DNA from: Moorella sp. E308F | GTDB lineage: Bacteria; Bacillota; DSM-521; Neomoorellales; Neomoorellaceae | Length of the DNA stretch: 64,000 bases | Assembly (NCBI RefSeq): GCF_006538365.1 | Contig: NZ_BJKN01000001.1 | Span: forward strand, 1,111,583-1,175,582 | Reading direction: 5' to 3' | Part shown: positions 8,812-19,808 of the stretch, in pieces | How positions within the stretch are numbered: the stretch's first letter is position 1 | Layout: each line of letters begins with the position of its first letter | Notes under the pieces: generated by a model | What the model was told of the DNA's origin: nothing | Databases searched by the model: none | Seen by the model: the letters and a program-made list of their open reading frames with translations, nothing else | Translations under genes and position numbers: made by a program

Positions 8812-9768
8812 ATGCAAAAAGGCAAAAAGGTTCTAGCTCTGATAGCAGGTGTGGCTCTGGTGTTTTCCTTTGTCCTGCCTGCCTGGGCCAGGGGAGGAGG
8901 AGAAAAGGGCAGGACGTGGGAGTATGAGTTGGAACTGGAAGCCGGGTTACAGGATGATGTACAGCAGGATGCTGACCAGGAGCAGGAAAGAACGAGGGAG
9001 AGGGATCGCGAAAGGGAACAAATAAAGGTTAAGAACGGGAAAAGTGTGGCGAAGCACGTATATAGAGGCGTTGAGAATGCCCTGTTACATGTGAAAAATC
9101 CGGTAGCACGTGCTGCTTTGACAGCAATCCTGGAGGGACGGAGCGTAGCCGAAGCAGTTTATGAAGCCAAGGCGCAGCTTGATACCTGGAAGGACGCAGA
9201 AGAGATTGTTGACGTCACGGAGCAGCTGGAAAATGCCGTCGAAGCCGATACGACCCTTGATGCTGCCACCCGGGCGCAAATTAAGAAGCAGCTGGGCATG
9301 ATGTATTTTAAGGCCGGCAAGTTTAAGGATGCCCGGGAACTGCTGGAAGACGTACTTGAGGAGGAGCCTGATGACGAAGAGGTTTACCGGCAATTAGATC
9401 AGGCTTATGCGGCCAGCGGTGAACTGCAGGTAAAGGTTTTTATCAAAGGGAAAGCGCTGCAATTTGACGTTCCTCCCCGGATTGAAAACAGCAGGGTCTT
9501 GATACCTGTACGGTTCCTGGCCGAGGGGCTGGGCGCAGAGGTAAATTATGATAATGGTGTTGTAGTAATTACCAATAAGGGCTCTACCATTCGCCTGGCA
9601 ATAGGGAGCAATAAAGCCCTGGTAAACGGAGCGACGGTTTATCTGGATGTCCCGGCCCGGGTGGTTGACGGCCGTACCCTCGTCCCTTTAAGATTTGTCA
9701 TGGAAAAATTTAAGGCTAAAGTAGATTATTATGACGGCAGCAACCTGGTGGCCGTGCAGCCTTTATAA
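8812..9768 (+). CDS. Secreted protein with TPR region and copper-amine-oxidase N-terminal-like domain
   Basis: An N-terminal signal peptide (KKVLALIAGVALVFSF, cleavage near AWA at residue 26) is followed by a Glu/Arg/Asp-rich linker, a tetratricopeptide-like helical segment (MYFKAGKFKDARELLEDVLEEEPDDEEVYRQ cut here to its theme, about residues 163-200) and a C-terminal Cu_amine_oxidN1 domain (about 210-318) with its paired motifs SRVLIPVRFLAEGLGAEV and GRTLVPLRFVMEKF. This domain is common in extracellular proteins of thermophilic Clostridia and is thought to be cell-surface structural, not an oxidase. A GGGAGGG Shine-Dalgarno precedes ATG 8812. Confidence 0.8.
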   Translation: MQKGKKVLALIAGVALVFSFVLPAWARGGGEKGRTWEYELELEAGLQDDVQQDADQEQERTRERDREREQIKVKNGKSVAKHVYRGVENALLHVKNPVARAALTAILEGRSVAEAVYEAKAQLDTWKDAEEIVDVTEQLENAVEADTTLDAATRAQIKKQLGMMYFKAGKFKDARELLEDVLEEEPDDEEVYRQLDQAYAASGELQVKVFIKGKALQFDVPPRIENSRVLIPVRFLAEGLGAEVNYDNGVVVITNKGSTIRLAIGSNKALVNGATVYLDVPARVVDGRTLVPLRFVMEKFKAKVDYYDGSNLVAVQPL

Positions 9769-9975
9769 AGCATCAGTTGACGAGGTAACTTTAAGGGCAA
9801 GAGGCCATTCTTCATCCCAATCTTTGATAAGCACCTCGGGGAATGAAAAAAATGGGTTGACAAAAGTTCCTCCCTGGCTTAAAATATCAACTAAGGCAGA
9901 ACGAGAGGAGTATTGATCCAAAGAAGGACGCTTGTTGACGGGAGATACTATCAAGAGGCGTTTCATATTGCCCAA
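9763..9975 (-). CDS. Uncertain small ORF, unknown function
   Basis: A 70-codon minus-strand frame in otherwise empty sequence (9769-10296). From the internal ATG at 9966 it reads MKRLLIVSPVNKRPSLDQYS, which looks protein-like, but I recognise no family and see no clear Shine-Dalgarno. It overlaps the end of the upstream convergent gene by six bases. It may be a remnant. Confidence 0.2.
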   Translation of the reverse strand: MGNMKRLLIVSPVNKRPSLDQYSSRSALVDILSQGGTFVNPFFSFPEVLIKDWDEEWPLALKVTSSTDAL

Positions 9976-10007
9976 ACATGTTATCCAATGATGGAAGCAA
10001 GGTAAAG

Positions 10008-10049
10008 GCGCTTTTCAGGAGTTCCGTCTTCTGAAATAGCGCTTTTTTA
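10008..10049 (+). terminator. Terminator-like hairpin
   Basis: GCGC plus TTTCAG at 10008-10018 pairs with CTGAAA and GCGC at 10031-10042, followed by TTTTTTAT. It lies between the secreted protein gene and the nif operon. Confidence 0.45.
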
Positions 10050-10101
10050 TTCTATTGGCATTCTATCGGCCAGGATTATTAAACCTTTTTTAAACGAGTG
10101 C

Positions 10102-10149
10102 AAGGGTGCTTTAAAGGAGCAAAGCTGCTCCAGGAAAAGCACCCTTTTT
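10102..10149 (+). terminator. Terminator hairpin upstream of nif operon
   Basis: A long stem: AAGGGTGCTT at 10102-10111 pairs with the matching strand ending in AAGCACCCTT, and an inner GGAGC/GCTCC stem extends it. It ends in a run of five T. It isolates the nif operon from upstream transcription. Confidence 0.65.
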
Positions 10150-10164
10150 ACGTTTTGCAGGAAA

Positions 10165-10230
10165 GTCCGGCCGGACGATAAGATACAGGTCATCTTCAGC
10201 CGTTACAGCAGGCATGGAAACTGCAGCGGC
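10165..10230 (+). promoter_or_regulatory. Palindromes upstream of nifH, candidate operators
   Basis: A perfect 12-base palindrome GTCCGGCCGGAC lies at 10165-10176. An imperfect dyad pairs GCCGTTACAG (10199-10208) with CTGCAGCGGC (10221-10230). No clear -24/-12 or consensus sigma-A promoter is seen. Their position 70-130 bases before nifH makes them candidate control sites, but no known regulator box is matched. Confidence 0.25.
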
Positions 10231-10242
10231 TGGGGTGTATAA

Positions 10243-11124
<882 letters not shown>

Positions 11125-11175
11125 AAACCGGAAGCCTCAAGAGAAGATGAAAATTTATATACGGGGGTTATAGCT

Positions 11176-11493
11176 ATGAAAATGCTCCGGGCTATCATTC
11201 GTCCCGAAAAAAGCGAAGAAGTGGTAGATGCCCTGGCTGAAGCCGGATACGTGGCCCTGACCAAAATGGATGTGGTCGGGCGGGGTAAACAAAGAGGTAT
11301 TCATATGGGCAGTATCTACTACGACGAACTGCCCAAAGTAATGATCATGCTGGTAGTGGAAGACAGCCAGGTGGAAGAAGTGGTAGCGATCATTACCAGG
11401 TCAGCCCATACCGGAAACTTCGGTGACGGCAAAATCTTTGTCACACCGGTGGAAGAAGCCTACACCGTACGGACAGGTTCCGCCGGGCTGTAG
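11176..11493 (+). CDS. nifI1: PII-like nitrogenase regulator NifI1
   Basis: A 105-residue GlnB-family protein (MLRAIIRPEKSEEVVDALAEAGYVALTKMDV, C-terminal GDGKIFVTPVEEAYTVRTG signature). In methanogens and many anaerobic bacteria NifI1 pairs with NifI2 to switch nitrogenase activity off post-translationally by binding NifDK in response to 2-oxoglutarate and ATP/ADP. Its place between nifH and nifD, next to nifI2, is diagnostic for that role rather than for general PII. Start ATG 11176 has a GGGGGTTATAGCT leader. Confidence 0.92.
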   Translation: MKMLRAIIRPEKSEEVVDALAEAGYVALTKMDVVGRGKQRGIHMGSIYYDELPKVMIMLVVEDSQVEEVVAIITRSAHTGNFGDGKIFVTPVEEAYTVRTGSAGL

Positions 11494-11509
11494 GGAAAGG
11501 GTGATCTCC

Positions 11510-11872
11510 TTGAAAGAAATAGTTGCCATCATCAGGCCCAATAAAATTAACGCTACCAAAAAAGCCCTTGACGTGTTAGGTTTTCCGGGTATGAACGCCT
11601 GCAAGGTAGTCGGGCGGGGTAAGCAGAAAGGCATTCTTGGGGAAGTAGCCTTCACCGTCAGCCCCGAACTGCAAAACCAGGAGGGTGGGATGAAATACGT
11701 GCCCAAAAGGATGCTTTCCCTGGTGGTAGACGATCAAGACGTGTCCCTGGTTGTGGCGGCAATCATCAAAATCAACCGTACCGGCCAGATTGGCGACGGG
11801 CGTATCTTTATATGTCCTGTTGAGGAAGTAGTACGTATACGCACGGGGGAAAAGGGAGAGACGGCCATCTGA
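11510..11872 (+). CDS. nifI2: PII-like nitrogenase regulator NifI2
   Basis: A GlnB-family protein of 120 residues from TTG 11510 (LKEIVAIIRPNKINATKKALD...). It carries the longer NifI2-type T-loop region (FTVSPELQNQEGGMKYVPKRML) and the C-terminal GDGRIFICPVEEVVRIRTGE motif. It acts with NifI1 on NifDK. The frame is open further upstream (to 11423), but that part overlaps nifI1 and is not PII-like; AAAGGGTGA at 11496-11504 supports TTG 11510. Confidence 0.92.
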   Translation: MKEIVAIIRPNKINATKKALDVLGFPGMNACKVVGRGKQKGILGEVAFTVSPELQNQEGGMKYVPKRMLSLVVDDQDVSLVVAAIIKINRTGQIGDGRIFICPVEEVVRIRTGEKGETAI

Positions 11873-11918
11873 TTGAGAGGGTAGGGGATATTTTCCGTTA
11901 GGGGGGAAGAAGAACATC

Positions 11919-13379
11919 ATGCCGATGGTAAAAATGAAGTGCAACGAAACGATTCCCGAGCGGGATAAGCATATTTACCGCACCGAAAAGGAGAAATCCA
12001 TAATTCCGGCCTGTAATATCGCCACCCTTCCCGGGGATATGACCGAGCGGGGGTGTGCTTTTGCCGGTGCCCGCGGGGTCGTAGGCGGACCAATTGCCGA
12101 CGTCATCCAACTGGTTCATGCGCCCGTAGGTTGTGCCTGGTACACTTGGGGTACGCGGCGCCATCTGTCCGACTTTTATCTCTGGGCTACGCCCACTCGC
12201 CTGACCAATGTTGCCTTCAACCGCCGCTACTGCGTGTGTACCGACATGCAGGAAAAAGACGTTGTTTTTGGAGGCATGAAAAAGCTGGAACGGGCCTGCC
12301 TGGACGCCATCCGGCTCTTCCCTGAAGCAAAGGGCCTGATTATTTTTACCACCTGCACCACCGGCCTGATCGGCGACGACGTGCAGGCGATAGCCCGGCA
12401 GGTTGAGAAGGAAACCGGCAAGCTGATCTTCACTTCCGAATCACCTGGTTGCTCCGGGGTGAGCCAGTCAAAAGGTCACCACGATTTTAACACCCAGTTT
12501 TACCGGCAGATACGGCAGTTAAGGGAGCGCCGGCCGGAGCTAAAAATGAGCGAAGAAGAAAAAACGCCCTATGACATCTGCCTGATTGGCGAGTACAACA
12601 TGGACTGGGATTTAAAGGTGGTGAAGCCCCTCTTTGAAAAAATCGGCGTGCGCGTTGCAGCCGTTTTTAGCGGTAACGAGCGCATCGAAAACCTGGTCAA
12701 GATGCCCGACGTAAAATTAAACGTGGTGCACTGCCAGCGTTCGGCCGAGTATATCGCCCACATGCTGGCAGACGGGTTTAACATTCCCTTTATTCGCGTT
12801 TCCCTCTTCGGGATTAAACAGACTGCGGAAGCGCTGCGGAAAACGGCCGCCTTCTTTGGCCTGGAGGAGCGGGCCGAGGAGGTAATTGCTGAAGAAATGA
12901 AGCGGGTAGAGAAGAGCCTGGCTTTCTACCGGGAAAAGTTAAAGGGCAAGCGGGTGGCCATTTACGTTGGCGGGCCGCGGGTCTGGCACTGGATCAAGCT
13001 GATGGAGGAACTGGGGATGACCGTGGTGGCCGTCGCCTGCACCTTTGCCCACCAAGACGACTATGAAAAGATCAACGCCCGGGCGCCGGAGGGAATGCTG
13101 GTTATCGACAACCCCAACGAGTTTGAAATCGAAGAGATGCTAAAGAGCGAAAAACCGGACCTGTTTTTAACGGGACTAAAAGAAAAGTATATCGCGCGCA
13201 AGATGGGTATTCCTACGGTAAACTCCCATTCTTATGAAAAAGGTCCTTACGCCGGCTTTGTCGGTATGGTTAATTTCGCCCGGGATATTTACCAGGCCCT
13301 TTATGCACCGGTTTGGCAATTCCAGTGGGGCCTTGACGGTGCTCCATTAAAAGACGAGGGGGGAAGGGCATGCAGCTAA
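11919..13379 (+). CDS. nifD: Nitrogenase component I alpha chain, NifD-like with V-type features
   Basis: Catalytic subunit that binds the nitrogenase cofactor. P-cluster ligands C46 (RGCAFAG), C72 (APVGCAWY) and C146 (TTCTTGLIGDD) are present, as are cofactor ligands C272 (NVVHCQRS) and H437 (NSHSYEKGPY), and Q183 and H187 (SQSKGHH), matching Azotobacter Q191 and H195. The N-terminus (MPMVKMKCNETIPERDKHIY) and the cofactor loop GGPRVWHW (351-358) resemble VnfD (GGPRLWHW) rather than Mo NifD (GGLRPRHV). At 486 residues it is of Mo-like length, and no anfG/vnfG gene is nearby. A GGGGGGAAGAAG Shine-Dalgarno precedes ATG 11919. Its last ten bases overlap nifK. Metal type is uncertain. Confidence 0.9.
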   Translation: MPMVKMKCNETIPERDKHIYRTEKEKSIIPACNIATLPGDMTERGCAFAGARGVVGGPIADVIQLVHAPVGCAWYTWGTRRHLSDFYLWATPTRLTNVAFNRRYCVCTDMQEKDVVFGGMKKLERACLDAIRLFPEAKGLIIFTTCTTGLIGDDVQAIARQVEKETGKLIFTSESPGCSGVSQSKGHHDFNTQFYRQIRQLRERRPELKMSEEEKTPYDICLIGEYNMDWDLKVVKPLFEKIGVRVAAVFSGNERIENLVKMPDVKLNVVHCQRSAEYIAHMLADGFNIPFIRVSLFGIKQTAEALRKTAAFFGLEERAEEVIAEEMKRVEKSLAFYREKLKGKRVAIYVGGPRVWHWIKLMEELGMTVVAVACTFAHQDDYEKINARAPEGMLVIDNPNEFEIEEMLKSEKPDLFLTGLKEKYIARKMGIPTVNSHSYEKGPYAGFVGMVNFARDIYQALYAPVWQFQWGLDGAPLKDEGGRACS

Positions 13380-14848
13380 AGGAAATTCCAATTGCAGGCA
13401 TACCTTACGATCAGATAAAAATCGCCAAAGTCCCGGCCACGCCGGAGTATTGTGAGCGGCCGGCAGAGCTGATCCCCTCCACGAGCAGGAGTGTGGTGAT
13501 CAATCCCAACCGTACTTGTATGCCCCTGGGAGCCATGTGGGCGGTGCTGGGAGTAAAAAAGGCAGTTCCCTTTGTCCAGGGCGCCCAGGGTTGTACCACC
13601 TACGTGCGCTATACTTTCAGCCGTATTTTTAAAGAACCGGCCGTTATCGCCACCGCCTCCTTCCATGAGGATGCAGCGGTTTTTGGTGGCCGGCGCAACC
13701 TGGTGGAGGGCATTCGCAACCTGGTGGTACGTTACTGGCCGGAGTTGATTGGTGTAGTGACCACCTGTTCCAGCGAGATTATCGGCGACGATATGGTCAG
13801 CTTTATCAAAATGGCCAGGGCCAACCTGCGCAAAGAGATCGGGGCGAAAAAAGCGGACCAGATCCCCATCGTGCTGGTTAACACCCCCAGCTTTGCCGGG
13901 TCCCACGTGGAAGGTTATGACCGCGCCTCCCGTGCCTTTGTGGAGACCCTGGCTACCACCAGAGGGGAGCCCAACGGCAAGGTAAATATCATCCCCGGCC
14001 TGCTCTACCCGGGCGATATCCGGGAGATCAAACACCTGCTGCGCCACATGGGTATAGAAGCGATAGTGCTCTTTGATATTTCCGATACCCTGGACGCTCC
14101 CCTGGAGCCGCCAACGTCCGTCCCCTACTGGGCTCCCGGCGGCACTGAGGTAGAGGAAATTAAAGATATGGCCAATTCGCTGGCCACCTTTGCCCTGCAG
14201 CCCCACGCCGGCCAGGCCGGGGCCCGCTACCTGGAGCGCAAATACGGCGTGCGTGCCGTGGTGGGGCCGCCGCCGGTGGGAGTACAGGGCACCGATGCCT
14301 TTTTAAAGGCGTTGCGGGAAATAACCGGAAAACCCATCCCCCGGAGCCTCTTAGAGGAAAGGGGACGTTTGGTTGATTCCCTGGCCGACACCTTGCATCA
14401 CACCATGATGAAAAAGGTGGCTGTTATGGGGGACCCTGATATCGTGCTCGGTGTCACTCGCTTCGTGCTGGAAATGGGTATGGAGCCGGTGGCCCTGGCC
14501 GGTGGTACGGCCAGTAAGACCTTCGTCCACGATGTAGAGGCTATCCTGGCCGAGGCAGGGTATGAAGGTGAACCGCCGCTGATCATCAACGGCGGTGACC
14601 TGTTCGAGTTTGAGGAGTACCTGAAAAAACAATCGCGCCTGGACCTGATCATCGGTAATTCCCGGGCCGTAGACATCTCCCGTGAGCTGCAGGTACCACT
14701 GGTGCGGGTAGGTTTTCCTATCTATGACCGCTTCGGTTATCAAAAACGCCCCATTGTCGGTTACCGGGGTGGGGAGATGCTCCTGGCGGAAATTGTCAAC
14801 AGCATGCTGGATTACCAGTACCCGGATGACCGTACCCAGCAGCTGTAA
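13370..14848 (+). CDS. nifK: Nitrogenase component I beta chain
   Basis: Forms the heterotetramer with NifD and shares the P-cluster. Ligands C50 (NRTCMPLGA), C75 (GAQGCTTYVRY) and C133 (TTCSSEIIGDD) are all present, with the S174 counterpart in NTPSFAGSHVEGYD. The 492-residue length lacks the long N-terminal extension of Azotobacter-type NifK and fits clostridial or alternative forms. The start ATG 13370 overlaps nifD by ten bases and has GAGGGGGGAAGG just before it, which suggests translational coupling for equal stoichiometry. Confidence 0.93.
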   Translation: MQLKEIPIAGIPYDQIKIAKVPATPEYCERPAELIPSTSRSVVINPNRTCMPLGAMWAVLGVKKAVPFVQGAQGCTTYVRYTFSRIFKEPAVIATASFHEDAAVFGGRRNLVEGIRNLVVRYWPELIGVVTTCSSEIIGDDMVSFIKMARANLRKEIGAKKADQIPIVLVNTPSFAGSHVEGYDRASRAFVETLATTRGEPNGKVNIIPGLLYPGDIREIKHLLRHMGIEAIVLFDISDTLDAPLEPPTSVPYWAPGGTEVEEIKDMANSLATFALQPHAGQAGARYLERKYGVRAVVGPPPVGVQGTDAFLKALREITGKPIPRSLLEERGRLVDSLADTLHHTMMKKVAVMGDPDIVLGVTRFVLEMGMEPVALAGGTASKTFVHDVEAILAEAGYEGEPPLIINGGDLFEFEEYLKKQSRLDLIIGNSRAVDISRELQVPLVRVGFPIYDRFGYQKRPIVGYRGGEMLLAEIVNSMLDYQYPDDRTQQL

Positions 14849-14865
14849 GGAGATGAGCGAGGCAA

Positions 14866-16248
14866 ATGCTCATTGAAACAATGCCCGAACGGACCGGACA
14901 TCTGGAGCCGGCGAACCTGCCCGCGTGTGAGCGGCAGACCTTACCCGGGGTGATCTCCCAGCGGGCCTGCCTGCTTTACGGAGCCCGCTGGATGCTGGCG
15001 GCCATCAGGGACGCGGTTCACCTCATCCACGGGCCGGTGGGTTGTGCCTACTACAGCCAGACGGTACGACAAAAGAATTACAAGGTGTTTTCTACCGGTC
15101 TGGGAGAAAAGGAGATTATCTTCGGCGGCGGGCAAAAACTGGAAGAGGCTATCAGGGAAGCAGTAAGTTTGTATCCCCGGTCGTCAGCCGTGCTGGTTTA
15201 CACTACCTGCGCGGCAGGACTGATCGGTGAAGACGTGGAGGCAATCTGCAAACAGGCGGCGGCTGCCCTGGGCCTGCCGGTGGTGCCGGTCAACTGCCCG
15301 GGTTTTGGCGGGGTGAGCCAGGGTAACGGGCACGATGTTGCTGCAGCAGCTCTGCTGGAGCATTTTATCGGGCGCGGTTCTGCCGGGACGCCCCTGGAAA
15401 ATAGTGTGAACATCCTGGGCGAGTTTGATGTTCAGGGCGATTTGAAGGAAATTGAGCAGCTATTGCAGCGACTCGGTTTAAATATTATCTGCGCCGTTTC
15501 CGGCCGGGCAACGGTAAAAAATTTGGCCCGGGCTCACCGGGCCAGGCTCAATATCGTCCACTGCGGGCGTACCGGGCGCTGGCTGGCCCGGAGGATGGAG
15601 GAGCGCTTCGGTATTCCCTGGCAGAAGGTATCCTTTTTCGGTTTGGACGCAACCGCGGCGGCACTGCAGGCCATCGCTGCTTTCTTTAACCGTCCGGAGG
15701 CGGCCGCGTGGGTAGAAAAGGAGGCGGAAGCCACCAGGCAGAGGGCGCTTCCTTACCTGGGACGCCTGGCGGGCAAACGGGTGGCCCTGTTTTTTGGCGC
15801 TTCACGTATGGGTTCCATGGCCGGGGCCTTCAGGGAATTGGGTATGGAGGTGGTTTTATGCGGCTCCCAATTCGGCTGTCAGGAAGATTATACCGAATCC
15901 CGCCGCTGCCTGGGCCGGGGAACGCCGCTGATCGATGACGCTCACCAGCGGGAGCTGGAGGAATTCTGGCACCGCTACCGGCCGGATTTGCTGGTGGGGG
16001 GTACCAGGGAGAGATTTGTGGCCCATAAGATGGGAATACCCTTCCTGGTCTTTCCCCAGGAAACAAGCCCTTATGCCGGCTTCAACGGTTTTGTGCATCT
16101 GGCCCGGGAAGCGGCGGCCCTGGTGGGAGCGCCGGTGTGGCGGTTGAGCAACAACGAGCTCTTGCGGGAAGAAGGAGAAGAAAAGATGGCTGAATATGTA
16201 CGGTATGTGGAGAGGGGGAAAAAGGAGAATGGGAGATCCAGCCTATGA
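14866..16248 (+). CDS. nifE: Nitrogenase cofactor scaffold protein NifE
   Basis: A NifD-paralogous scaffold on which the NifB product is matured to the final cofactor. C35 (SQRACLLYGAR), C60 (GPVGCAYYSQ), C115 (TTCAAGLIGED) and C233 (LNIVHCGRT) correspond to the cluster-binding cysteines of NifE. The final histidine cofactor ligand of NifD is not kept (PQETSPYAGFNGF), as expected for NifE. At 460 residues it is full length. Its normal partner NifN is not encoded anywhere in the window; nifB follows directly, overlapping the 3' end by 20 bases. AAGGAGATGAG precedes the ATG. Whether it works as a homomer or with NifK is an open question. Confidence 0.88.
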   Translation: MLIETMPERTGHLEPANLPACERQTLPGVISQRACLLYGARWMLAAIRDAVHLIHGPVGCAYYSQTVRQKNYKVFSTGLGEKEIIFGGGQKLEEAIREAVSLYPRSSAVLVYTTCAAGLIGEDVEAICKQAAAALGLPVVPVNCPGFGGVSQGNGHDVAAAALLEHFIGRGSAGTPLENSVNILGEFDVQGDLKEIEQLLQRLGLNIICAVSGRATVKNLARAHRARLNIVHCGRTGRWLARRMEERFGIPWQKVSFFGLDATAAALQAIAAFFNRPEAAAWVEKEAEATRQRALPYLGRLAGKRVALFFGASRMGSMAGAFRELGMEVVLCGSQFGCQEDYTESRRCLGRGTPLIDDAHQRELEEFWHRYRPDLLVGGTRERFVAHKMGIPFLVFPQETSPYAGFNGFVHLAREAAALVGAPVWRLSNNELLREEGEEKMAEYVRYVERGKKENGRSSL

Positions 16249-17044
16249 AGAGATAACCAGGGAACATCCATGCTACAACAAAGCCGCTGCCAGGTGGTTC
16301 GGGCGCATCCACCTGCCGGTAGCGCCGGACTGTAACATAAAGTGTCGCTATTGTACCCGGCTCTACGATTGCGCCAATGAAAACCGACCCGGCGTGACCA
16401 GCCACCTGATGGCCCCTGGGGAAGCCCTGCAGCACGTGCAGCGGCTGGTGGAAAGGGACAGGTGCATCCGGGTGGTAGGCGTTGCCGGTCCCGGGGAGCC
16501 CCTGGCCAATAAGGCCACGATCCATACCCTGCGGCTGGTACATCGCCGCTTTCCGGGGCTGATAAAATGTATCAGCACCAACGGGTTGTTGTTGACCGAA
16601 AGCCTGCCGGCGCTGCGGGAAGCAGGGGTGCGGGCGGTGACGGTGACGGTGAACGCCGTTTCCCCGGCGGTAGGCAGCCGGATTTACGATTACGTATCTT
16701 ACCGGGGACGGGTATATAAGGGAACTGCCGGGGCGGAACTGCTGTGGCGGGCCCAGCATGAGGGTATTCGCCAGGCCCGGGAATCGGGCATGGTCGTTAA
16801 AGTAAACAGCGTGCTCATTCCCGGAATCAATGACCATCACCTGGAAGAGGTGGCCCGGGCGGTGAAGGCGGCCGGGGCGCATGTCATGAACATAATTCCC
16901 CTGATTCCCCAGGGGGAATTTGCCGGACTGCTACCACCGCCGCCGGCGCGGGTCAACCTGTTGCGCCGGAAGTTGTCGCCCATTATTGACCAGATGTCCC
17001 ACTGCCGGCGCTGCCGGGCGGACGCGGCGGGGAGGCTGGGATGA
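16229..17044 (+). CDS. nifB: NifB radical SAM cofactor-core synthase (short form)
   Basis: Builds NifB-co, the 8Fe-9S-C core of nitrogenase cofactors. The radical SAM motif CNIKCRYC is at residues 35-42 (C35, C39, C42), preceded by HPCYN and the FGRIHLPVAPDC signature, with CISTNG in the barrel and a C-terminal MSHCRRC motif supplying further cluster cysteines. At 271 residues it lacks the C-terminal NifX-like domain of proteobacterial NifB and is not fused to NifN as in some clostridia. The frame is open from 16196; ATG 16229 with AAAAAGGAG before it is the best start and gives a conventional N-terminus. It overlaps the end of nifE. Confidence 0.9.
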   Translation: MGDPAYEEITREHPCYNKAAARWFGRIHLPVAPDCNIKCRYCTRLYDCANENRPGVTSHLMAPGEALQHVQRLVERDRCIRVVGVAGPGEPLANKATIHTLRLVHRRFPGLIKCISTNGLLLTESLPALREAGVRAVTVTVNAVSPAVGSRIYDYVSYRGRVYKGTAGAELLWRAQHEGIRQARESGMVVKVNSVLIPGINDHHLEEVARAVKAAGAHVMNIIPLIPQGEFAGLLPPPPARVNLLRRKLSPIIDQMSHCRRCRADAAGRLG

Positions 17045-17075
17045 GATTTTATGCCCTGCCCTGGAGGTGAGGCTG

Positions 17076-18260
17076 ATGCGGGTGCGGGTTGTGGATACGA
17101 CCTTGCGGGACGGGGAGCAGGCCCCGGGGGTGGCTTTTAACCTTGAGGAAAAGGTAACCATTGCCCGGATGCTGGACCGGCTTGGCGTAGCGCAGATTGA
17201 GGCCGGCACGCCGGCCATGGGGGAAATTGAGCAACAGGCTATAAAGGCCATCGTCAGGATGGGCTTAAAATGCCGGATCAGTACCTGGAACAGGATGCTA
17301 TGGGAAGATATCCGCGCCTCCCTGGCCTGCGGGGTACGTGATGTGCATATTTCCGCTCCCGTGTCGCCCATTCAAATCCGGTACAAACTGGGGCAAAGTC
17401 ACCAGTGGGTGCTGGAGCGCTTGCGGCAGGCCTGCCTCTATGCCATGGACCACGGCCTGCGGGTGACAGTGGGAGCGGAGGACGCTTCCCGGGCAGACCC
17501 CGTTTTCTTGCTGGAGTTTGCCTTCCTGGCCCGGGAACTGGGGGCGGAACGGCTGCGTTACTGCGATACCGTGGGTGTTCTGGACCCGTTCGCCACCTTT
17601 GAGCGTCTTGCCTGGCTGAAAGAAAAAATAGACCTGGAACTGGAGTTTCACGGTCATAACGACTTCGGCCTGGCCACGGCCAACGCCCTGGCGGCCGTCA
17701 AGGCCGGTGCTGGTTGGGTGGATGCCACCATCTGCGGACTGGGGGAAAGGGCAGGGAACGCCGCCCTGGAGGAGGTGGTCATGGCCCTCAAGCACCTGCA
17801 CGGGGTCGAGCTCGGCTTCAAGACGGAAAAGTTACAGGAAATCGCCGCATATGTGGCCCGCGCTTCCAGACGGCAACTGCCTGCGTGGAAACCGATCGTC
17901 GGAAGCAACATATTCGCCCACGAATCAGGTATTCATGTCGACGGCACCCTCAAAGATCCCCGGACTTATGAGGTATTCGCGCCTGAAGAAGTCGGCCTTA
18001 GGCGGCAGATTGTAATCGGCAAGCACTCCGGCACCGCCGCCCTCAAGGCGAAGTTTGCCGCATACGGCATCGCTTTGAGCCAGGAGGACGCCGCAGTCAT
18101 ACTGGAACGGGTGCGGGCGGCAGCGGTGCAGCTAAAGCGCTCCCTTGGCGACCAAGAATTGATTTATTTATATGAGGACTACCTTCTCCACCAGGCCGCC
18201 GGGGCAAGTTCCGCACCCCAAGCGGTAGCAGCACCGAGCCAGGAAAAACGGCCTGAATAA
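17076..18260 (+). CDS. nifV: Homocitrate synthase
   Basis: Condenses acetyl-CoA with 2-oxoglutarate to make homocitrate, the organic ligand of the nitrogenase cofactor. The 394-residue product opens VVDTTLRDGEQAPGV, the alpha-isopropylmalate synthase family active-site motif, and has the metal-binding FHGHNDFGLA and the GLGERAGNAALEEVV motif. NifV rather than LeuA or CimA is favoured by the operon context and the length. The frame extends upstream to 16920, but that part overlaps nifB in another phase and is not conserved; TGGAGGTGA at 17062-17070 points to ATG 17076. A terminator follows, so it ends the operon. Confidence 0.9.
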   Translation: MRVRVVDTTLRDGEQAPGVAFNLEEKVTIARMLDRLGVAQIEAGTPAMGEIEQQAIKAIVRMGLKCRISTWNRMLWEDIRASLACGVRDVHISAPVSPIQIRYKLGQSHQWVLERLRQACLYAMDHGLRVTVGAEDASRADPVFLLEFAFLARELGAERLRYCDTVGVLDPFATFERLAWLKEKIDLELEFHGHNDFGLATANALAAVKAGAGWVDATICGLGERAGNAALEEVVMALKHLHGVELGFKTEKLQEIAAYVARASRRQLPAWKPIVGSNIFAHESGIHVDGTLKDPRTYEVFAPEEVGLRRQIVIGKHSGTAALKAKFAAYGIALSQEDAAVILERVRAAAVQLKRSLGDQELIYLYEDYLLHQAAGASSAPQAVAAPSQEKRPE

Positions 18261-18313
18261 CCTCTACCTTCCGTGCAGCCTTTATAAAAAGCATAGGGAA
18301 AATAATCGAAGGG

Positions 18314-18343
18314 GAGCCTCGCCCGGGAGCGGGCTCTTTTTTT
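18314..18343 (+). terminator. Terminator of the nif operon
   Basis: GAGCC and GCCCG on the left pair with GGGCTC on the right, followed by seven T. Confidence 0.65.
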
Positions 18344-18408
18344 GCCATCGGTGTGCTATAATAATAGCAATTAACAACGGATTATATTAGCTAGAGGGGG
18401 TCCGGTGC

Positions 18409-18642
18409 ATGATCGGTAAAGTCAATGACGATTTTTTCCGCCAGGCCATTTTACCCCATACAGGGGCTGGAGCTCCCGAGGTAGTGGTAGGGCCGCGCAT
18501 GGGCGTGGATGCGGCTGTCCTTAAAATAGGAGAGGAGTGCCTGGCTGTTGCCGAAGACCCCATATTCACGGGGGCCACGATGTTCCCCGAAATTGTGGCT
18601 AAAGTCAAAGCCCTGGCAGCAAAAGTAGAAGAACTTGGTTAG
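18409..18642 (+). pseudogene. AIR synthase-related protein with internal deletion
   Basis: The first ~53 residues (MIGKVNDDFFRQAILPHTGA..., GPRMGVDAAVLKIGEECLAVAEDPI) are the ATP-binding N-terminus of an AIR synthase/HypE-like protein. The remainder (FPEIVAKVKALAAKVEELG) does not continue the fold, and the product is 77 residues instead of about 330. This suggests a large internal deletion joining the two ends. A GAGGGGG Shine-Dalgarno remains. It sits directly before mtnA and probably makes no functional enzyme. Confidence 0.6.
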
Positions 18643-18743
18643 GAGAGAAAACGTGGCCGCCTTAAAGGGGCTACGGTTTTAACCTGTACCGGCCCGGACG
18701 AGCAAAATATTAAAGAGCCAGAACTGGCCTGGAGGTGTCCTTT

Positions 18744-19808
18744 TTGCAGTACGAACCTGTTGCGCCTATTCGCTGGCAGGACGGCCAGGTGGAAATGATT
18801 GACCAGACGCGCCTGCCGGAGGAGCTGGTCATTATCCGGCCCCGGACGGTAGAGGAAATGTGGGATGCTATTAAAACGCTAAAGGTCCGGGGGGCACCGG
18901 CCATCGGCATAGCTGCGGCCCTGGGCCTTTACCTGGCCATCAAGGATTCCCGGGCCAGGGACAGGGCGGAATTTGAGACCGAATTAAAGCAGGCTGCCGC
19001 TTACCTGGCCTCGTCCCGGCCAACGGCGGTCAACCTTTTCTGGGCCTTGAAACGGGTTCAGAAGGCCGTTGCCGCCGCTGCCACCACCACCAATGATGTT
19101 TCTTCCTTGAAAGATCTGGTGTTAAAAGAAGCCCTGGCCATCCGCGACGAAGATGAAGCCACATGCCGGGCCATTGGAAAAAATGGCGCTGCCCTCCTCC
19201 AGGATGCCGAAGCCGTCCTCACCCACTGCAATGCCGGCACCCTGGCTACCGCCCGCTACGGTACGGCACTGGCGCCTATTTATTACCTGGCATCCCGGGG
19301 CAAGGTGCTCAAAGTGTTTGCCGATGAAACCCGGCCCCTTCTCCAGGGAGCAAGGCTTACGGCCTGGGAACTGCACCAGGCCGGTATCCCGGTTACCCTG
19401 ATTACCGATAATATGGCCGCTGCCGTCATGGCCCGGGGCCTGGTCCAGGCGGTCATCGTCGGTGCCGACCGCATTACCGCTAACGGCGATGTGGCCAATA
19501 AAATCGGCACCTACGGGGTGGCAATACTGGCCAGGGAACACGGCCTTCCCTTTTATGTAGCAGCTCCGGCTTCTACCTTTGATTTAAGCCTTTCCAGCGG
19601 TGAGCAGATTCCCATTGAAGAAAGGGACCCGGCGGAAGTCAGCCACTTTGGCCTGCGGCCCACGGCGCCGGAAGGCATCAACATTTTTAACCCGGCCTTT
19701 GACGTGACGCCGTACCGTTATGTGACCGCTATTATTACCGAAAAAGGCATTATCAGGCCCCCGTATAAAGAGAATATCCCGCGCGTGCTAACCGGTGAAA
19801 GCAGGTGA
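18744..19808 (+). CDS. mtnA: S-methyl-5-thioribose-1-phosphate isomerase
   Basis: Isomerises methylthioribose-1-phosphate to methylthioribulose-1-phosphate in methionine salvage. Family motifs are clear: KVRGAPAIGIAAALG, RPTAVNLFWAL, THCNAGTLAT, the catalytic-Asp region VIVGADRITANGDVANKIGTY, and FYVAAPASTFD. From TTG 18744 it has 354 residues. The frame opens at GTG 18735, but that codon lies within the GGAGGTG Shine-Dalgarno. With mtnP a little downstream it forms a methylthioadenosine salvage pair. Confidence 0.93.
   Translation: MQYEPVAPIRWQDGQVEMIDQTRLPEELVIIRPRTVEEMWDAIKTLKVRGAPAIGIAAALGLYLAIKDSRARDRAEFETELKQAAAYLASSRPTAVNLFWALKRVQKAVAAAATTTNDVSSLKDLVLKEALAIRDEDEATCRAIGKNGAALLQDAEAVLTHCNAGTLATARYGTALAPIYYLASRGKVLKVFADETRPLLQGARLTAWELHQAGIPVTLITDNMAAAVMARGLVQAVIVGADRITANGDVANKIGTYGVAILAREHGLPFYVAAPASTFDLSLSSGEQIPIEERDPAEVSHFGLRPTAPEGINIFNPAFDVTPYRYVTAIITEKGIIRPPYKENIPRVLTGESR

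Follow-up and report, generated by a model that had tools for sequence, protein, structure and literature searches.

The nifD gene of Moorella sp. E308F encodes the alpha subunit of the only nitrogenase in its genome, a member of the F-Mc clade that very probably carries FeMo-co in a Mo-type cofactor shell. Within the window, the 64,000-nucleotide stretch of DNA that was analyzed, the gene lies in a compact operon with the order nifH-nifI1-nifI2-nifD-nifK-nifE-nifB-nifV, for which several start codons are putative (Table 1). The genome (3.06 Mb) is Moorella-like, and NifD of the window is identical to NifD of Moorella stamsii DSM 26217.

Table 1. Genes of the nif operon, and residues and elements of nifD, by position in the window
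Feature	Position	Strand	Basis
nifH, nitrogenase iron protein, AnfH-like sequence	10297..11124	+	TIGR01287 461.6 bits, cut-off 394
nifI1, PII-family regulator	11176..11493	+	PII families; position between nifH and nifD
nifI2, PII-family regulator, GTG start inferred	11501..11872	+	PII families
nifD, nitrogenase component I alpha subunit, F-Mc / Group III clade, 486 aa	11919..13379	+	family models, tree
nifD codon 46, TGT, encoding Cys at P-cluster ligand position alpha-62 (14 related loci have TGA)	12054..12056	+	
Probable relic of selenocysteine insertion hairpin, 9/10 pairs kept	12066..12091	+	inference
Arg80 = alpha-R96 (Lys in Vnf/Anf)	12156..12158	+	alignment
Cys272 = alpha-C275, cofactor ligand, in CQRS (CARS in Vnf/Anf)	12732..12734	+	alignment
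GGPRVWHW loop, residues 351-358	12969..12992	+	alignment
Thr375 = alpha-380, clade-specific (Glu in Nif-I/II, Lys in Vnf/Anf)	13041..13043	+	alignment
His437 = alpha-H442, heterometal ligand	13227..13229	+	alignment
nifK, beta subunit, Ala at beta-92	13370..14848	+	best PDB match 9spz_B, 493 bits
nifE, scaffold homologue	14866..16248	+	profile search, residue comparison
nifB, short-form radical SAM NifB-co synthase, putative start	16229..17044	+	TIGR01290 307.5 bits
nifV, homocitrate synthase, start inferred	17076..18260	+	TIGR02660 519.5 bits, exceeds cut-off

In profile searches NifD exceeded the cut-offs of both TIGR01862 (555.9 bits) and TIGR01284 (550 bits). The nifB product scored under the TIGR01290 cut-off of 343.65 bits, as would be expected for a form without the C-terminal domain. 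NifE keeps Cys at the equivalents of 62, 88 and 275 and lacks His442, which is consistent with a scaffold role. Genome-wide, a single alpha subunit was found apart from NifE, together with two ModA proteins and SelB, and a search for a second nitrogenase elsewhere in the genome found none. No NifN scored above cut-off anywhere in the genome, the NifN model matching just NifK and NifE at sub-cut-off scores. The lack of vnfG and anfG reported in the preliminary description was confirmed for the whole genome, 99.98% complete, in which TIGR02929 and TIGR02930 had no match. The placement of nifI1 between nifH and nifD is likewise known from Group II/III operons.

In a tree of alpha subunits (69 rows) the Nif-I/II sequences were split from everything else at 100/100. 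The other side of this unrooted tree held ANME-2, Vnf plus Anf (100/100) and an F-Mc-like group (94/87) consisting of the window and 43 further rows, which included Desulfofundulus, Carboxydothermus, Desulforudis, archaeal sequences and PDB entry 9spz. The F-Mc-like group also lay on a single side of a branch in the NifK tree (98 SH-aLRT). It was not one side of any single branch in the NifH tree or the concatenated tree; no starred branch of the latter forbids it, and the nearest neighbours of the window were identical across the D, K, H and concatenated trees. NifD is a member of a known clade, named F-Mc (Garcia 2020), 'uncharacterised' (McGlynn 2013) or Group III (Howard 2013) and classed as Mo-type by McGlynn 2013 (PMC3578447) and Garcia 2020 (PMC7216921). 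An intermediate lineage, as had been suggested from the mixed signatures, is therefore an apt description of its position, beside Vnf/Anf and outside Nif-I/II, but the clade had already been described. The window shares with F-Mc / Group III the placement of HDK, nifE without nifN (as in most members), nifI1 and nifI2 between nifH and nifD, a single alpha subunit with no G subunit, the GxPRxWHW loop, a Mo-type shell with A65, G69, R96, Thr (a residue other than Lys) at 380 and Lys/Arg at 428, and a thermophilic anaerobic host; no feature in the window distinguishes it from this clade.

Two observations on relatives arose from the same sampling. The nifHDK genes of an Armatimonadetes MAG and two Methanoregulaceae MAGs (L010, L015, L016) are 63-88% identical to those of the window and are nested among Bacillota in the tree, indicating either gene transfer or mis-binned contigs. 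Genome G108, from the same phylum, carries an anfD-G-K operon (L091, 9864-14063, followed by an ORF that may be anfO) together with a nifN-less F-Mc nif operon (L092). This goes against the view that Anf is found only alongside a complete nif set; the genome is a draft, and mis-binning is possible.

The protein fits none of three curated type models, the scores with the nifD (462 bits, cut-off 653), VNFD (467.5 bits, cut-off 823.1) and ANFD (414 bits, cut-off 874) equivalog models all being far under their cut-offs. Identity was 45-49% to VnfD, 41-43% to AnfD and 38-43% to NifD, so that the earlier view of the rest of the sequence as Mo-like is correct for the cofactor shell and incorrect for the protein overall. 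The VnfD-like N-terminus (MPMVKMKCNETIPERDKHIY) was verified against VnfD of 5n6y over an aligned 20-residue stretch, and the closeness of NifH to AnfH was likewise borne out (76-77% identity versus 61-66% to NifH of Nif-I/II). That the enzyme belongs to the canonical Nif-I/II Mo-nitrogenases and has its variant loop by chance, as its Mo-type shell residues taken by themselves might suggest, is hardly conceivable. This reading is ruled out by the 100/100 branch, and both the nifD score and the absence of nifN, which leaves no nifEN pair, count against it.

The GGPRVWHW loop was found where the preliminary description had placed it. Among alpha subunits gathered from 40 named-genome loci, a 398-genome phylum sample, plasmid records and PDB matches, P358, R359, W361, H362 and W363 (A. 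vinelandii numbering) were invariant in 44/44 F-Mc-like and 6/6 ANME-2 sequences. Position 355 was Val in the F-Mc-like clade and Gln in ANME-2, the Thr of VnfD never being seen in these 44 and 6 sequences, while position 360 was Val, Thr, Ala or, once, Leu within the clade; PDB 9spz, a solved relative from the clade, has GGPRTWHW. The P-R-x-W-H-W loop is not due to chance; it is fixed clade-wide and normal for the group, for which 'GxPrxWH' was already printed in Table 2 of McGlynn 2013 (PMC3578447). The loop is thus common in its own clade, which by the preliminary description's own standard counts against its reading, although this clade lies outside canonical Nif-I/II. Its use of GGLRPRHV as the Mo NifD form applies to Nif-I and not to Nif-II, where GGS-R-x-HHY is found. 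In Garcia 2020 (PMC7216921) TGGPRL is given as the Vnf loop, conserved only in Vnf, the Thr355 side chain is said to contact the FeV-co carbonate, and Pro358 is called unique to Vnf. The window has VGGPRV in place of TGGPRL, and the uniqueness of Pro358 to Vnf is not supported, given its clade-wide occurrence in the present alignment. As the loop Pro and Trp are common to most of the Vnf/Anf side, they constitute no evidence of V or carbonate. Trp361 would probably represent an old state lost in Nif-I/II, if the unrooted tree is read in that direction. As a marker of V use Trp361 was dropped, since Trp stands at this position in Nif-I NifE too (GGVKSWS).

The cofactor shell of the window consists of A65, G69, V70, R96, Q191, H195, C275, Q276, K426, E427, K428 and H442, all of which are Mo-type or universal, the Vnf/Anf counterparts being C65, L/H69, K96, A276, R426 and G428. 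At position 380, close to the heterometal, every member of the F-Mc-like clade has Thr, which matches neither Nif nor Vnf/Anf. Sixteen columns of the present set fully separate Nif-I/II from Vnf/Anf; in 7 of them the window shows the Nif state, in 3 the Vnf/Anf state (residues 176, 418 and 435) and in 6 a state of its own, although Vnf-specific counts are rough with a Vnf reference set of two sequences. Howard 2013 (PMC3760896) noted that cofactor-surrounding residues do not directly reveal the metal. Among solved structures, D (63% identity) and K both matched PDB 9spz/9sq3 best, an enzyme that shares GGPRxWHW (with T at x), A65, G69, R96, CQRS and T380 with the window, but is without a short insertion near residues 86-101 and has Ser instead of Ala at beta-92.

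A V-nitrogenase or metal-flexible enzyme, in which the Pro loop takes carbonate and FeV-co (or FeMo-co plus carbonate) is used in the cell, is very unlikely. The loop differs from that of VnfD at just 2 of the 6 positions 355-360 (Val for Thr355 and Val for Leu360), VnfD has the highest overall identity among characterised types, and, of the solved structures released to April 2026, VnfD comes nearest to the model in fold. VnfDGK (5n6y) indeed shares the N-terminus, P358-R359-x-W361-H362-W363 and the fold with the window, but VnfG, Thr355, Leu360, C65, L69, K96, CARS, K380, G382 and G428 are all missing, as is a VNFD score near the cut-off; AnfG and a sufficient ANFD score are missing likewise. 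The fold ranking carries little weight, the AlphaFold model (20 sequences) having a pLDDT of 73.8 and 9spz not being among the listed matches; with values below 50 in the P-cluster region, the model is too weak to judge the space for a carbonate. The clade-fixed loop, the mostly Mo-type shell, the replacement of Thr355 and the lack of vnfG/anfG all argue against the earlier suggestion that the loop signals likely V or flexible metal use. We also consider it improbable, to a similar degree, that the clade pocket (Pro358 and Trp361, with Val for the Vnf Thr) accepts either FeMo-co or FeV-co, or FeMo-co together with a small ligand; if it did, nifN-less thermophile enzymes would be naturally metal-flexible.

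From the shell residues and the gene content, the enzyme is probably Mo-dependent. The greater likeness of the sequence to VnfD than to NifD, that of NifH to AnfH, and Thr at 380 are points against a Mo enzyme. For the preferred reading, NifB would supply NifB-co and NifV would supply homocitrate. Because there is no NifN, the final insertion of Mo and homocitrate would take place on NifE (alone or with NifK) or on NifDK, as has been proposed for relatives (PMC3760896, PMC8809328, PMC8209448). Cys272 and His437 would then bind FeMo-co, surrounded by residues of the Mo-nitrogenase type, and NifI1 and NifI2 would probably shut the enzyme off under ammonium. In the related Clfx group, NifDK of Roseiflexus has no need of NifEN to build FeMo-co (PMC11573651). 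As judged by that published description, Roseiflexus resembles the window in being a thermophile without full NifEN and in conserving R96 and H442, but it is also without nifE, unlike the window. Growth of Methanothermococcus thermolithotrophicus, whatever the clade of its enzyme, is strictly Mo-dependent (PMC9765008). A literature search turned up neither a metal determination for any nifN-less F-Mc enzyme nor a study of Moorella fixing N2.

The protein might be nitrogenase-like without fixing N2, or the operon might not work; this could be argued from the absence of nifN and from an alpha-subunit match in only 4/8 sampled genomes of the genus, one of which (G013) has nifD without nifE and without an adjacent nifK. 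Against this, all cofactor and P-cluster ligands are intact, as are nifB, nifE, nifV and nifI1/I2, and the nifN-less relatives Caldicellulosiruptor (PMC8209448) and Methanocaldococcus FS406-22 (PMC8809328) grow on N2; we regard either case as highly improbable and favour an active Mo-type enzyme. The G013 locus (L061) holds nifI2, nifD and a nifV-like ORF, with no nifK in its 4.4 kb and no NifE match in the genome. Given the 4/8 count, the nif genes of the genus may be in decay or have a patchy inheritance.

The P-cluster ligand alpha-62 is Cys in the window, whereas the corresponding codon is TGA in Desulfofundulus and Carboxydothermus, the nearest relatives beyond Moorella stamsii. Wherever a NifD of the Bacillota clade loci had an in-frame stop, it was TGA at the codon of Cys46 (14 loci, several of them near-duplicates: L005, L006, L008, L011, L014, L020, L055, L058, L059, L064, L065, L066, L098 and L099); Desulfovirgula, Desulforudis and others are also represented. 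Howard 2013 (PMC3760896) described Sec62 in three species, with covarying beta-Ala92, and the range of TGA at alpha-62 is wider than this. At least 6 Sec/Cys changes are needed on the tree, and Sec and Cys have been exchanged repeatedly in the clade. Every one of the 14 TGA loci had beta-Ala92, but so did 28 Cys loci including the window (nifK residue 72), with overlapping loci and copies counted; the residue is therefore a subclade marker, independent of Sec. A hairpin with the loop GGGT lies 3' of the TGA, with 10/10 pairs in 7/9 TGA loci tested. With TGT in place of TGA, 9/10 pairs are kept in the window and 10/10 in Desulforudis J_13. At third codon positions, identity between the window and TGA loci was 0.77 within the hairpin stretch and 0.58 elsewhere in nifD; for Cys loci the values were 0.35 and 0.52, respectively. 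Relatedness accounts for part of this likeness, the folding energies were not unusual against shuffles, and Rfam had no match at positions 9500-19000. The pattern points to a probable recent replacement of Sec by Cys in the Moorella lineage, leaving a fossil SECIS; selB is still encoded in the genome.

The locus adds a nitrogenase host close to cultivable Moorella strains. Pro358 and Trp361, which could be read as V markers, turn out to be clade-wide and not V-specific, and what is less expected in this lineage is that Sec and Cys have been exchanged at a P-cluster ligand. Knowing which metal the nifN-less nitrogenases of thermophiles use would help to tell whether Mo served the earliest nitrogenases and how FeMo-co can be assembled without NifEN.
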